Shown here one piece after another: positions 14,678 through 21,591 of a DNA stretch of 64,000 bases. The notes below the pieces were generated by a model. It made no database searches. It was not told the origin of the DNA and saw only the letters and a list, made by a program, of their open reading frames with translations. Positions within the stretch are counted from its first letter, which is position 1; every line of letters starts with the position of its first letter. The position numbers and the translations under genes are program-made. This stretch comes from Planctomycetaceae bacterium (GTDB taxonomy: Bacteria; Planctomycetota; Planctomycetia; Pirellulales; UBA7805): assembly GCA_902630355.1 (NCBI GenBank), contig CACOUL010000004.1, positions 1 to 64,000 of the forward strand, read 5' to 3'.

Positions 14678-15514
14678 ATGCGCCCAGCTCTACTTCAACT
14701 GAAAAAACGCGCCGAAGGTATGCAATCGGCTGCGCTCTACCGGTCGATTGTCATCGGATCGACCATTTTCCTTATCGCCGTTGCGGCGTGCCGCTGGGGA
14801 TCCGATTCGTTCACCGCCGAAACTCAACTCACACTCACCCGCAAGAAAATCCAGTCCGCCTGGCCCTCGAGTGAAGCGTGGCAACAAATCCTCGGCAGGG
14901 CACTCTCCTGGCAGCTCACCGCCACAGGGAAAGGCCGCGGGCTCGAGGCGGTATCACTGCGGGTCGATGCCGATTCCACCCCACTGTTTCTGAATGTCAC
15001 GCTGCGCTACGTCGACCGCGATCGGCAAACCGCAATCGCCGGAGCCAACCACTGGGGCAACCGGTTGATGGAGTACGATTTTGCGATTGCCGACTTTTCG
15101 CAATCTGACGCCACCTGGCATATGTTGCCCGCGCGGAAGGCGGTCCGAGAAATTGCGCCGCTCACAACGGCAACGCTGCTCGGGTGTCTGCTGCTTGCGG
15201 CATTCACACTCGGCCTTTTCTCCCTTTGGTTTCACTATCGCCAAGGCACACTGCAAACCAAACAATCGATCGAAAACGTATTGAAAACGCGTGTGCTCGC
15301 ACATCTGCCCTCTGCCACGGACGCCACTGGCAGCGAAAGAAAAAGTTTATTTCATTCCGCCTGTTTCATCGGCGAGTGGGTTTTGATGGGAATGCTACTC
15401 GCCGCACTCGCAGTGTCGGTGATAGACAAACATTTTGCTCATCAGTTTTTTCACCAACCGGTCTCGGCACTTGCCGACAGCCTGCGACAGCTGACGGCAA
15501 TCACCTGGAGTTAA
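14678..15514 (+). CDS. Membrane protein resembling a polysaccharide chain-length regulator (Wzz-like)
   Basis: The product is 278 residues with a hydrophobic helix near 24-41, a periplasmic segment of about 120 residues with mixed strands and helices, a second helix near 158-185 and a third near 230-250. Two flanking helices around a periplasmic domain, plus an EPS-type neighbourhood, suggest a short Wzz/chain-length determinant protein, but the usual Pro-rich motif before the last helix is not clear. It stops four bases before the ExeA-like gene, so the two are co-transcribed. Start ATG 14678 has a weak ribosome site; ATG 14720 is an alternative. The call is mainly from context. Confidence 0.5.
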   Translation: MRPALLQLKKRAEGMQSAALYRSIVIGSTIFLIAVAACRWGSDSFTAETQLTLTRKKIQSAWPSSEAWQQILGRALSWQLTATGKGRGLEAVSLRVDADSTPLFLNVTLRYVDRDRQTAIAGANHWGNRLMEYDFAIADFSQSDATWHMLPARKAVREIAPLTTATLLGCLLLAAFTLGLFSLWFHYRQGTLQTKQSIENVLKTRVLAHLPSATDATGSERKSLFHSACFIGEWVLMGMLLAALAVSVIDKHFAHQFFHQPVSALADSLRQLTAITWS

Positions 15515-15517
15515 ACG

Positions 15518-17173
15518 ATGTACGAATCCTTTTACGGCTTTTCGACCCGCCCTTTCCACACGGTTCCCGCCAAGGATCGCTATTTTCCTGCCGAGTCGAT
15601 CGAGACCGCACGGACCAATTTGATCCGGTGCCTCGACCGTGCCGAGGGCTGCGGACTGGCGATGGGACCGACCGGCAGCGGCATTTCCATGCTGTGCGAA
15701 GTGATCGCCGAGCACTTCCGGGGCAACCTAGCGACCGTACTGCTTGGCGGATTGCGACTGACCAATTGCCACGAACTGCTCCAGGGAGTTCTTCACGCAC
15801 TCGGACAGCCTCACCTTCGCATGACCGACGGCGAACTGCGGCTCGCAATTGCCGATGCGGTTTCACCTGGCGGAAGCTGCCCGCAGGGTATCGTCCTGAT
15901 CGTCGATGAGGCGCACCGTCTTCCGCTTCGCGTCGTGGAGGAATTGAGATTTTTGACCAATTTGGTGTACGACGCAAAGCCGAGCGTTCGTCTTTTGCTC
16001 GCGGGAGGCAGTGGACTGGAGGAGCGGTTTGCCGACCCTCGGTTGGCGCGCATGAATCAGCGAGTGGCTGTGCGATGCTATCTCTTACCTTTCACCGCCG
16101 AGGAGTCGTTCCAGTTCATTCGCGCGCAGACTGCCTCCGCAGGCACCGACCCGGACCGCCTGTGGGCACTCGACGCACTCAAGGCAATCCATCGCCATGC
16201 CGATGGATGCCCGCGACTGATCAATCAACTCTGCAACCATGCACTGTTGCTCGCCGCACCGGAAAAAGTACCCCAACTCACGGAGCGCGAGGTTGAACGG
16301 GCCTGGGCCGATATGCAGCAAATCCCCACGGCGGGTCATGCCGAATTGGCCCCGGATGCGGGAGAAGCAAGCAGCACGGTCATCGAATTTGCCAGCCTCG
16401 ATGAGGAAGCACCAGATGCGGCAGATGCGAGTGGCTTCTCCTCTCTGCCGACGGAAGAAGAAGCCGATACTGCGGTCGATTCACTAGGGACGCACCCGTT
16501 TGTCGGACAGACCCATCCGGTCGCAGAGTCAGAACCGCTGCCGGAAACTCGAGACGGCGAGAGCAGCCACGAAACGGCCGAGGGCGACCGCCCGCAGAGT
16601 GAAATTTTGGAACATACGTTTTCACACTGCATCGAGGTGACGCCATCGGCGGGTGAAGAGCCGGCAACCGAGTTGCCGACCTCGAGTGAAGCGCATTCAC
16701 CAAACGCAAACCGGCAACCGCCGCCCGCCAACACGGTCCTGGTGACCGAGTATGCGGGCATCGATGCGGGGAATGTCCTGCCGGTGAAATCGGCCCGCCC
16801 GGAGACAGCCACCCCATCCGACGAGAGCCACCCTGCCCGGGAAGCGAGCGTCCCACTCGAGAACCGCACGGATGACCCACTCGGTGCCCCCGTTGACCCG
16901 CACCCTCCTACGGTGGATTCTCCTGCGACGGACGACCAGAAGAGCGCCCCGGTGGCCCACGAGATTCCGCAACCGCACGAGACGTCATGCGAAACGGCAC
17001 ACGAACATGAGACGCTACAGACGCTACAAGAGATGGCGTCCCAATCTCACCCGGCTCAACCGGCTCACCCGCTGATTCCTCTCACGCCCCAAACCGTGCA
17101 TACCCTCGGAGCCGAATTGCAATTTGCCAATGCGGCGAAAAATCCTGCTCTTAAACACCTGGTGCAACCGTGA
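15518..17173 (+). CDS. ExeA/GspA-like AAA protein with a degenerate Walker A motif
   Basis: The product is 551 residues. The first 270 residues match ExeA-type ATPases used in type II secretion and XrtA-type exopolysaccharide systems: MYESFYGFSTRPF start, P-loop region at 50-57, Walker B LIVDEAHRL (Asp130/Glu131), NLVYDAKPSVRLLLAG and the LINQLCNHALLLA helix. The P-loop reads GPTGSGIS: the invariant Lys is Ile56 (codon 15683-15685), so ATP hydrolysis is doubtful. The last 280 residues are a long acidic, Pro/Glu/Ser-rich tail without a recognised domain. It starts four bases after the Wzz-like gene and overlaps the next gene by GTGA. It is probably a regulatory pseudo-ATPase of a polysaccharide export system. 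Confidence 0.75.
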   Translation: MYESFYGFSTRPFHTVPAKDRYFPAESIETARTNLIRCLDRAEGCGLAMGPTGSGISMLCEVIAEHFRGNLATVLLGGLRLTNCHELLQGVLHALGQPHLRMTDGELRLAIADAVSPGGSCPQGIVLIVDEAHRLPLRVVEELRFLTNLVYDAKPSVRLLLAGGSGLEERFADPRLARMNQRVAVRCYLLPFTAEESFQFIRAQTASAGTDPDRLWALDALKAIHRHADGCPRLINQLCNHALLLAAPEKVPQLTEREVERAWADMQQIPTAGHAELAPDAGEASSTVIEFASLDEEAPDAADASGFSSLPTEEEADTAVDSLGTHPFVGQTHPVAESEPLPETRDGESSHETAEGDRPQSEILEHTFSHCIEVTPSAGEEPATELPTSSEAHSPNANRQPPPANTVLVTEYAGIDAGNVLPVKSARPETATPSDESHPAREASVPLENRTDDPLGAPVDPHPPTVDSPATDDQKSAPVAHEIPQPHETSCETAHEHETLQTLQEMASQSHPAQPAHPLIPLTPQTVHTLGAELQFANAAKNPALKHLVQP

Positions 17174-17964
17174 GAGTGGATCTGCAAACCGCGCTGCGGG
17201 AAATCGAAGGACGTGCGGCCGATTTTGGCCCGGCCACTCAGTGGCAAGCAACCCGGGAAGCGACCGCTGAGACGGCGGACGACACTCCTCGGCAGCACGC
17301 GTCTCGGCTATCGTCTCTGAAATCTTCTCGGCGATCGTCTCGGCCGCCGCACCACGACGGCGAACGTAAGGTCAAACAAGCTGACCGAGGCACGTCATCC
17401 GGCGCGCGCAGCAATCGACTCCAAAGCGCCGGGGAGCAAATTTTGCGTCGGCTAGGCCAGCAAGCACAGGCCAGCCTTCTGCTCCTCTGTGAGTCTCCAC
17501 TCTCGGCGTGCGATTCATCAGGGCAGCAGACACCGGGTGGAGCCTGGGCGAAGACGTTTGCCGACCTGCGAGAGGATCCCGTCTTGGCAGTGAAAATCGC
17601 CTCGGCGACAGAAGGCGGTCGAAGCGAGAAGCCCCCTCTAAGCGACACCCAAAGGCGACCGCAAATCATCCAGAGCCATCACCCGGGACTCTGTACCGTG
17701 CAGATCCCCTTCGGGTCGACTGCGTATGGATCGGTCGATGAATGGAATCAGTTGCAACAGCGATTCGGGCTGATCCTCATTGATGGATCGGGAGTCGACC
17801 TCGCAAAACTCAAGCCGTGGATGGCACGTTGTGGAAACGTTCTTTTTTTCGTCGACTACGGAAAGACCTCGCGCAGATGGGGGCGGCAAGTCTGCAAGCA
17901 GGTGGCCGCACAAGGAATCACACCCGTCGGTTGCATCACGCAAGGTCTGGCTGACCGATCTTGA
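17170..17964 (+). CDS. CpsD/BY-kinase-like protein lacking the P-loop
   Basis: The product is 264 residues from a GTG that overlaps the TGA of the ExeA-like gene, so translation is coupled. The C-terminal part looks like the CpsD/tyrosine autokinase fold: FGLILIDGSGVDL replaces the Walker B FDLVIIDTPP region, followed by the ARCGNVLFFVDYGKTSRR strand and VGCI. Where a Walker A GxxxGKS is expected (LLLLCESPLSACDSSG, about residues 103-118) there is no Lys, and no Tyr-rich tail is present. The N-terminal 90 residues are Ser/Arg-rich and probably disordered. With the two genes before it, this resembles a worn-down Wzz/ExeA/kinase set for exopolysaccharide control. Confidence 0.55.
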   Translation: MRVDLQTALREIEGRAADFGPATQWQATREATAETADDTPRQHASRLSSLKSSRRSSRPPHHDGERKVKQADRGTSSGARSNRLQSAGEQILRRLGQQAQASLLLLCESPLSACDSSGQQTPGGAWAKTFADLREDPVLAVKIASATEGGRSEKPPLSDTQRRPQIIQSHHPGLCTVQIPFGSTAYGSVDEWNQLQQRFGLILIDGSGVDLAKLKPWMARCGNVLFFVDYGKTSRRWGRQVCKQVAAQGITPVGCITQGLADRS

Positions 17965-18090: not shown

Positions 18091-19038
18091 ATGCGAACTT
18101 TTCTCGTGACCGGTGGCGCAGGATTCATCGGTTCTCATATTGCAACGGCACTGGTGGAGCGGGGTGACCGGGTTCGCGTGTTCGACAACCTGAGCACGGG
18201 ACATCGATCAAACTTGGATCACCTCGGGGACGCGGTCGAGTTGATTGAGGCAGATCTCCTCGACGCGGCCGCCGTCAGCCAAGCGGTGGAGGGCGTAGAC
18301 TGCGTTTTCCACCAGGCGGCGCTCGCCTCGGTACCCCGCAGCGTAGAAGCACCGTTGGATACGAATGCAGCGTGCGTGACCGGCACCGTCACCCTGCTCG
18401 ATGCGGCACGCCGCGCCGGGGTCAGGCGGCTCGTCTACGCTGCCTCCAGCAGCCTCTACGGCGATAAACCGACCAGCTCGAAGCGGGAAACCGATGTACC
18501 GGAACCGATCTCGCCCTACGGTGCGGCAAAACTTGCCGCTGAGTATTACTGCCATGCCTTCACAGCAACCTACGGATTTGAAACGGTCGCACTGAGGTAC
18601 TTCAACGTCTTCGGACCCCGACAGGATCCCGACAGTCCCTACTCAGCTGTGATTCCGCTGTTCATCACCGCGATTCTCGACAACCGCGCGCCGGTGATTT
18701 TCGGCAACGGCCTCCAGTCTCGCGATTTCACTTTTGTGGCCAATGTCGTCCATGGGAATCTTCTGGCGGCGGATGCCGAAGGGGTTGCAGGCCGCAGCTT
18801 CAATATTGCCGCAGGCCGGAGTGTGAGTCTTCTGGAGATGCTCGCCATGCTCAACAAGTATCTCGGGACCGACGTTCAGCCCGAATTTGCCGATCCGAGA
18901 CCCGGCGACATTCTCGAAAGCCTTGCGGACATCTCCGCAGCTCGCAGGGCATTGAGCTACGCGCCGCAGGTTGAATTTGAAGAGGGGATTGCTCAAAGCA
19001 TTGATTACTATAGGTCGCTTAAAAACGCAGTCACTTAA
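18091..19038 (+). CDS. NAD-dependent sugar-nucleotide epimerase (extended SDR, UDP-Glc/GlcNAc 4-epimerase type)
   Basis: The product is 315 residues; ATG 18091 has GAAGGAG about nine bases upstream. The extended-SDR marks are present: GGAGFIGSH for NAD(P) at residues 8-16, DNLSTGHRSNLDHL, HQAALASVPRSVE, the Ser-rich AASSSLYG, YGAAK (catalytic Tyr/Lys), RYFNVFGPRQDPDSPYSAVIP and SRDFTFVANVV. The pattern fits the WbpP/Gne group of UDP-HexNAc 4-epimerases or GalE-like enzymes. It follows the exopolysaccharide-type trio by 126 bases and would supply a sugar donor for polysaccharide or O-glycan synthesis. Exact substrate cannot be fixed by eye. Confidence 0.85.
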   Translation: MRTFLVTGGAGFIGSHIATALVERGDRVRVFDNLSTGHRSNLDHLGDAVELIEADLLDAAAVSQAVEGVDCVFHQAALASVPRSVEAPLDTNAACVTGTVTLLDAARRAGVRRLVYAASSSLYGDKPTSSKRETDVPEPISPYGAAKLAAEYYCHAFTATYGFETVALRYFNVFGPRQDPDSPYSAVIPLFITAILDNRAPVIFGNGLQSRDFTFVANVVHGNLLAADAEGVAGRSFNIAAGRSVSLLEMLAMLNKYLGTDVQPEFADPRPGDILESLADISAARRALSYAPQVEFEEGIAQSIDYYRSLKNAVT

Positions 19039-19659: not shown

Positions 19660-19754
19660 AACCTCGCGACGTCACTGCATCGCCTCGATTCTTGTCGTGG
19701 CGTACAAAAATCATAATTTGATGGGGCTTGCCGGTTGCGACGTTCTTCGCTCCT

Positions 19755-21591
19755 ATGAATGACATGTGGTCATCTCATTTTTTCTGGAAGTTTCTGCTTG
19801 CGTCTGCAGGGATCAATTGCCTCGTCATTATCCTCTTTTCTTCTTTTCTGATGCGTTATTCAGAGAAGTTGCTGATTGAGGAATCCAATAATCGGCTTGG
19901 CTCTGCAATCGCATTTCTAGGATTGGATCTCAACAAAAAACTAGAGACACAAGACAAGGAACAACTTCAGCGGGCGGTCCGCTCGTGGTCAGACAAACTC
20001 GACTTGCGAATTACTGTCCTGGCCCCCAACGGCGAAGTGATCGCAGATTCCTTCTTCCACGATCCGACACAATTCAGGGATACTGAAAACCATAAAGATC
20101 GTGTCGAAATCACCCAAGCTGCTGCCAATGGTCAGGGAAGTTCACAGCGCGTCAGCGCAACGGTGGGTTCATCGCTCAGATATCTTGCGATTCGGGTCGG
20201 CAACAAAACCAATCCAAAGGGATTTGTTCGCGTTGCCATCCCAACTGAGAGACTGAACGCAGCGCTATCGGAAAAACGAAAAAATATTATTTGGGGGGGC
20301 AGTGGCTACCGGTGCGATTGTGTTAGGGGTCAGCATCTGGTTTGGCGGACGAACGGTACGTGCAGTCAAATCAATCGACGCGGCGGTTCAAAAAATCGCC
20401 TTCAACGGCCCACCCGCAAAAGTTTACCTTCCCGATCGAGATGAATTTGGCACCTTGGGCGATCATTTGAATCGCATGAGCATTGATCTCAGCGAGCGAA
20501 TTGATCTTCTGCAACAAGAACAATCGCGACTCGCCACCGTACTGGAAGGCATGGGCGAGGGCGTAATTACGGTCGATTACACGGAACACATTCTTTTTGC
20601 GAACTCCGCTGCTGGAAAGTTGCTTGATTTCGATCCGCAGGAAGCAACCCAAAAACCTTTCTTAGAGGCCATTCGAAATCACGTGCTTCATGAAGCGGTC
20701 GTGCAATCCATTGGGGGAAACACTCCCAAGATCCAAGAAATCGAAGTCGGTGAAAATCATGATCGTATTTTGCGGGCGAGTTTCACTCCGATGCAAGGAG
20801 ATCCTTGCCCCGGCATTGTGATTGTGCTGAATGACTTTACGGACCTTCGCAGACTGGAAATGATGCGACAGGAATTTATCGCGAATGTCTCTCACGAACT
20901 AAAAACCCCACTCTCTGCAATTAAAGCCTATGCCGAAACTTTGCAGAGAGGAGCGATTGAGGATGAAGTTCACCGCAAAAGATTTGTGGAACGGATTGAA
21001 GAACAAGCGGAGCGACTTCATCAGCTGATTCTCGACATGCTTCAACTCGCACGGGTCGAATCAGGAAAACAGGCGTTCGACATTCACGCGATTGCGGTTT
21101 CGGAAACGGTAAAATCCTGCATTGACGATTTCCTGGAGCCAACGCAGTCGCAACAGATCACCCTCACCTACGATCCCCCGAACGAAGATCTTTTTGTGCA
21201 GGCCGATGCAGAAGCCCTGCGGCATATCTTGAACAATCTGATCGATAATGCGGTGAAGTACACGCCCGAGAACGGATCGATCACCGTACGATGGCGACGG
21301 GAATACGAAATGGTTGTGATCGATGTGGTCGACACCGGGATCGGCATTGCGGCGAAAGATCAGGACCGCTTGTTCGAAAGATTTTTCCGGGTCGACAAGG
21401 CACGTTCGCAGGAACTGGGTGGTACGGGCCTGGGACTCTCCATCGTCAAGCATCTCGCGCTCAATTTCGGAGGGCAGGTGGGCGTATCGAGCGAGTTGGG
21501 CAAGGGAGCAACGTTCACTGTAAAATTACCCCTCGCCGAACAGGAATCTCGGAGCAAGCAAATCTTACCCGCATCCCACCCGACTTCTTAA
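19755..21591 (+). pseudogene. phoR: PhoR-type phosphate sensor histidine kinase, interrupted by a frameshift
   Basis: One kinase is spread over two frames. The first frame (from ATG 19755) has a membrane helix at its start, a periplasmic domain of about 150 residues, and loses sense after EKRKNIIWGG near 20300. The second frame resumes with GAVATGAIVLGVSIWFGG (second helix), then HAMP, a PAS-like region (residues DYTEHILFANSAA), HisKA (VSHELKTPLSAIKAYAETL) and HATPase (NNLIDNAVKYTPENG, GTGLGLSIVKHL). The break lies between A6 (20279-20284) and G7 (20293-20299); losing one base in either run restores a continuous protein. It heads the pst operon. It may be a sequencing error, a true mutation or a slippage switch; all catalytic motifs are intact. 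Confidence 0.85.

Follow-up and report, generated by a model that had tools for sequence, protein, structure and literature searches.

A form of the XrtA-type ATPase without the Walker A lysine is conserved in one clade of the planctomycete order Pirellulales, where it ends a stepwise series found in living species. Sequence comparison indicates that two P-loop losses took place in succession, that of a neighbouring kinase-like protein first and that of the ATPase lysine later. BY pseudokinases as a kind are already known (EcpK, HfsB; PMC12004946), and our data extend this recent idea to a whole planctomycete order. The natural series runs from both P-loops intact, through the kinase alone dead, to the ATPase lysine also gone, and offers ready-made test proteins for the ATP-requiring steps of polysaccharide assembly by BY-kinases and XrtA-associated ATPases. 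A dead kinase beside a lysine-less ATPase points to a machine that may serve as a scaffold rather than one that burns ATP.

The locus and its protein families

The window is a stretch of 64,000 nucleotides and belongs to contig 4 of a metagenome-assembled planctomycete genome (G000, 70.5% complete); the order is called Pirellulales here after the labels of named relatives (Planctomycetaceae/Pirellulales). On its + strand, three ORFs that encode 278, 551 and 264 amino acids (aa) are tightly coupled, by a 3-base gap (15515-15517) and then a GTGA overlap (17170-17173), as the first-pass annotation had described exactly to the base. The features discussed here are:

14678-15514, + strand: PCP (Wzz)-like membrane protein, 278 aa (ORF, AF2 model, KpsE as best PDB match, TIGR03007 matches in relatives)
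15518-17173, + strand: XrtA/PEP-CTERM-type AAA ATPase, Walker A Lys replaced by Ile, long acidic tail (AAA_22, TIGR03015)
15665-15688, + strand: ATPase P-loop GPTGSGIS, residues 50-57, with Ile at residue 56 (sequence, order alignment)
15905-15910, + strand: ATPase Walker B D130-E131 (LIVDEAH), kept (sequence, order alignment)
16340-17170, + strand: acidic tail of the ATPase, ~276 aa, probably disordered to judge from its composition
16379-16399, + strand: VIEFASL, recurrent proximal tail motif of the ATPase (motif count in order tails)
17170-17964, + strand: BY pseudokinase, CpsD/Wzc kinase fold (AF2 model, profile chain, alignment)
18091-19038, + strand: NAD-dependent sugar epimerase adjoining the trio, a conserved neighbour (Pfam Epimerase, 1.6e-64)

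The ATPase matches AAA_22 (Pfam, 4e-13) and, over positions 1-267 of 269, TIGR03015 with 117.6 bits, below the curated cut-off of 324.5; the latter score indicates a homologue, not an equivalog, of the XrtA-associated ATPase. The ATPase domain had no match when its sequence was searched against the PDB, and literature searches on the ATPase and on planctomycete co-polymerases returned no functional study. We take the protein to resemble the ExeA/GspA family (AAA_22 domain, N-terminal MYxxF motif, Walker B DEAx), from which it differs in its long acidic tail with recurrent end motifs, its polysaccharide-type neighbours and its lack of the P-loop Lys.

The PCP-like protein of the window matches neither the Wzz/GNVR nor the TIGR03007 profile, and a Pfam search returned nothing for it or for the kinase-like protein, neither of which has a significant profile match of its own; two order homologues of the PCP-like protein (L055 and L062) give weak TIGR03007 matches. 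Its AF2 model (pLDDT 72.6) comprises TM1, a short α/β periplasmic base domain, TM2 and a third, C-terminal TM, and so contains the TM-α/β periplasmic domain-TM arrangement of a PCP. The best PDB matches of this model are chains of the PCP KpsE (E 2.1e-4, probability 1.00), with low TM-scores of 0.3-0.4. Within the genus the protein has 278-302 aa and no coiled coil, compared with 477-533 aa in the sister genus.

Together with the kinase-like protein (see below), the trio is read as an XrtA-type chain-length protein, ATPase and tyrosine kinase (TIGR03007/03015/03018), an assignment that holds through relatives. The Wzz/ATPase/CpsD set of XrtA type proposed in the first-pass annotation is thereby upheld by profile matches, in part those of relatives, and by models of window proteins; the two proteins on either side of the ATPase were modelled with folds that match PCP (KpsE) and Wzc/CapB, respectively. 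As in the XrtA/PEP-CTERM trio, the genes are adjacent and three families are recognized by profile, the ATPase in the window and the PCP and kinase in order relatives. However, the profile scores of the window trio and its relatives all lie below the curated cut-offs, the kinase is dead here, the ATPase Lys is lost and the PCP is much shortened. Moreover, the trio stands outside the exosortase/EPS locus, which has its own Wzc elsewhere in the genome.

The order PCP, ATPase, kinase-like protein, epimerase is kept in all congeners with locus-spanning contigs and in the sister-genus genome G003. ATPase orthologues are present in the sister genus and in every congener assembly but G008, whose contig begins within the ATPase gene, so that the N-terminus is absent from that assembly. 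Across the order the kinase-like gene lies 3' of the ATPase in 66/111 loci with enough sequence, the epimerase in 36/85 loci. The surroundings of the trio are housekeeping genes (TrpF, AHCY, DUF1015, ParB) and not an EPS cluster; because the epimerase is the sole glycan link of the trio in the genus, a polysaccharide role is assigned by homology. In the same genome, contig 2 has the exosortase locus, which includes genes like Wza and Wzc, and contig 36 has another Wza/Wzc locus, whose Wzc keeps an intact GDGKT. Conventional polysaccharide machines thus reside elsewhere in the genome, and the trio stands apart from them among housekeeping genes. Further along the window, at 19728-21591, a histidine kinase gene is split into ORFs of 238 and 429 aa that overlap, where relatives (e.g. 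L047) have a single ORF of 635 aa, possibly a frameshift in the assembly; phosphate-transport (pst) genes lie 3' of it.

Loss of the Walker A lysine in the ATPase

Codon 56 of the ATPase (15683-15685) is ATT and encodes Ile, such that GPTGSGIS departs from the Walker A pattern GxxGxGK[ST], while a Walker B of the hhhhDE type (LIVDEAH) is present; both had been noticed in the first reading of the sequence. Two congeners share the change, residue 56 being Ile (ATT) in the window, Val (GTT) in G005 and Ile (ATT) in G006. Two further congeners, G007 and G009, have GATGMGKT, and the sister-genus protein (G003) has GASGTGKT. The ATPase profile is matched in 188/197 genomes of the order, and the protein is near-universal in Pirellulales. 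Its P-loop Lys is kept in 119/119 other order orthologues compared and is missing only in G005 and G006 among the 126 loci examined; it is also found in all of ~35 homologues from beyond the close group.

The three Lys-less species form one clade in the ATPase tree (support 100/99), and four flanking genes recover the same clade with full support. A single loss on the stem of this clade would be the simplest reading. The trio is syntenic in the genus, and close relatives are intact in the ATPase only, not in both proteins as recent decay or error would have had it; the loss is common to three species.

Within the Lys-less clade the AAA domain has dN values of 0.125-0.225 with dS > 2 (saturated), and is therefore under purifying selection. 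All three species keep the P-loop glycines, Ser57, D130/E131, R182, R186 and R233. Of ~29 columns with conservation of 97% or more across the order, two alone are altered in every one of the three species, K56 and D240. Residue 240 (window 16235-16237) is Asp in 116/119 of the order and Asn in the Lys-less species; D240N is possibly coupled to the loss of Lys. Arithmetic on branch lengths shows that the ATPase branches of the clade are ~1.6 times faster than the flanking genes predict. The Lys-less ATPase has been retained, under a constraint that is mildly altered, and is no pseudogene.

Other departures from the canonical site occur in the order. Five ATPase homologues (L086, L205, L212, L223, L229) keep the P-loop Lys but have DD in place of the Walker B DE, and in the sister-genus genome G002 (L038:6203-6260) the ATPase is apparently short of ~59 residues at its N-terminus, the entire P-loop among them, through a deletion or an assembly artefact.

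The kinase-like protein and the order of losses

The pattern GxxGxGK[ST] is absent from the kinase-like protein of the window, in agreement with the first-pass annotation. Alignment reveals no Walker A, a degenerate Walker A' (PVLAVKIA) and a retained Walker B-like FGLILIDGSG; the C-terminus (...GCITQGLADRS) is no Tyr-rich tail. A single homologue (L226) of the 67 from the order has as many as two Tyr in the last 25 residues. A GxGK[ST] or [DE]GK[ST] remnant is kept in ~6 of the 67 homologues sampled (L059, L061, L172, L181, L182, L187), the remainder having a partly lost P-loop (L158, L162, L188) or nothing recognizable.

The well-preserved L061 has as its best match TIGR03018, the XrtA-associated tyrosine autokinase (65.8 bits, 3.3e-18). 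In profile comparisons the kinase-like protein of the window's clade matches the order family (99.3%, 2.2e-20), which in turn matches true BY-kinases (99.8%, 2.6e-29); since the direct comparison of the window's clade with true BY-kinases was not significant, the order relatives are needed as a bridge. All of the top 48 PDB matches to the AF2 model (mean pLDDT 75.3) are chains of Wzc, CapB, VpsO, BceF and Etk (best E 1.7e-6), a result that is supportive and not fully independent because the AF2 alignment contained two true BY-kinases. Judged by the criteria used for EcpK (PMC12004946), the protein classifies as a BY pseudokinase. In some Pirellula-like genomes (L076, L079, L080) the kinase-like gene is cut to 159 aa.

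Neither the sister genus (G003) nor many other lineages of the order have the kinase P-loop, a distribution which indicates that it was lost early and repeatedly across Pirellulales. The parallel loss in two neighbours suggested by the first-pass annotation does not stand: G007 and G009 pair an equally P-loop-less kinase-like neighbour with an intact ATPase P-loop, which rules out simultaneous loss.

A possible scaffold and its alternatives

We lean towards a reading in which the trio is an XrtA-type PCP accessory complex that came to depend on a pseudokinase scaffold and then on the Lys-less ATPase as a static assembly factor. In this model the polysaccharide co-polymerase accessory complex would consist of the PCP in the membrane, the ATPase of AAA type and, docking on the PCP from the cytoplasm, the BY pseudokinase. 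The order of events can be read from living species. The kinase part lost its P-loop early and repeatedly in Pirellulales, and in the simplest account scaffolding would have taken the place of phosphorylation, as proposed for EcpK with EpsV; the PCP then shrank to its base domain in the genus, the coiled coil being gone; and last, a clade with three or more species lost the Walker A Lys of the ATPase, while selection held the remainder of the site. The Lys-less ATPase would have no efficient hydrolysis cycle and would act empty or weakly nucleotide-bound, its AAA domain supplying interfaces through the retained Walker B, R182/R186 and R233. A static nucleotide-bound state would also be compatible with the retained Walker B and arginines. 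Operation without ATP cycling is plausible for this system. A mechanism of binding or assembly, already voiced in general terms in the first-pass annotation, has in EcpK (PMC12004946) a precedent, supported by experiment, as far as the kinase part is concerned. More tentatively, the assembly of PCP, BY pseudokinase and Lys-less AAA protein could be structural throughout, none of its own parts hydrolysing ATP, with living intermediates across the order.

Removal of the Walker A Lys usually abolishes nucleotide binding or hydrolysis in P-loop NTPases. This speaks against a retuned motor, in which the ATPase still binds and perhaps slowly hydrolyses ATP with another group in place of Lys. The retention of the P-loop glycines, Ser57, the Walker B pair and the three arginines under strong purifying selection favours such a motor. 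However, no replacement Lys or Arg was found near the P-loop in the Lys-less clade, where the only two basic columns gained (101 and 214) lie outside the motif in sequence, and we consider a retuned motor rather unlikely. It is also unlikely that the ATPase forms mixed rings with an active paralogue, as no second member of the ATPase family was found in the near-complete congeners G005 and G006.

Decay would make the trio vestigial and the Lys loss an early step of pseudogenization. The stepwise disappearance of kinase P-loop, PCP coiled coil and ATPase Lys would fit, as would the faster ATPase branches, but this explanation is largely refuted by the selection data and is improbable: the frames are intact in three species at saturated synonymous divergence, dN is well below dS, and Walker B, arginines and tight gene coupling are all kept. 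An error of sequencing or assembly at the Lys codon might be suspected since all genomes concerned are metagenome assemblies. It can be dismissed, because the window, G005 and G006 are separate assemblies that agree on a non-Lys residue through codons two or three bases away from AAA/AAG, none of them at one base.

The static scaffold that we favour has its closest counterparts in EcpK/EpsV of Myxococcus xanthus and HfsB/HfsA of Caulobacter, pairs of a BY pseudokinase and a PCP-2 for which a scaffold role was proposed by the authors (PMC12004946). As in these pairs, the BY-kinase fold of the window stands alone, lacks both the catalytic Walker motifs and a Tyr tail, and has a PCP as its partner. 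The window operon differs by adding an AAA-type ATPase, itself without the Walker A Lys, and by a Walker B-like strand that is still recognizable in its pseudokinase.

In the proposed complex the acidic tail of the ATPase, with its short end motifs, might tether partners. Residues 276-551 contain 49 D+E versus 10 K+R. The 280-residue acidic tail singled out in the first-pass annotation is thus present (~276 aa) but is not peculiar to this protein: a tail of more than 100 residues occurs in 125/126 loci of the order (median 260), a distribution that marks it as ancestral there. Just past the AAA domain, [VI]x[EQ]F[GA] is found in 69/118 tails (0.66 in shuffled tails), and [FYL]xxL[FL]xx[LM] at the extreme end in 101/118 (0.46 in shuffled tails); as these patterns were chosen after inspecting the sequences, the contrast is descriptive. 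The two motifs resemble two docking sites on a tether. The window's tail retains the proximal motif, and the C-terminal one is blurred in its clade. In order tails such as L061, L172, L181 and L182, a proximal VxEFGxL and a C-terminal basic/aromatic R-x-E-F/Y-x-x-L-F-x-x-L-R are carried on an acidic linker.
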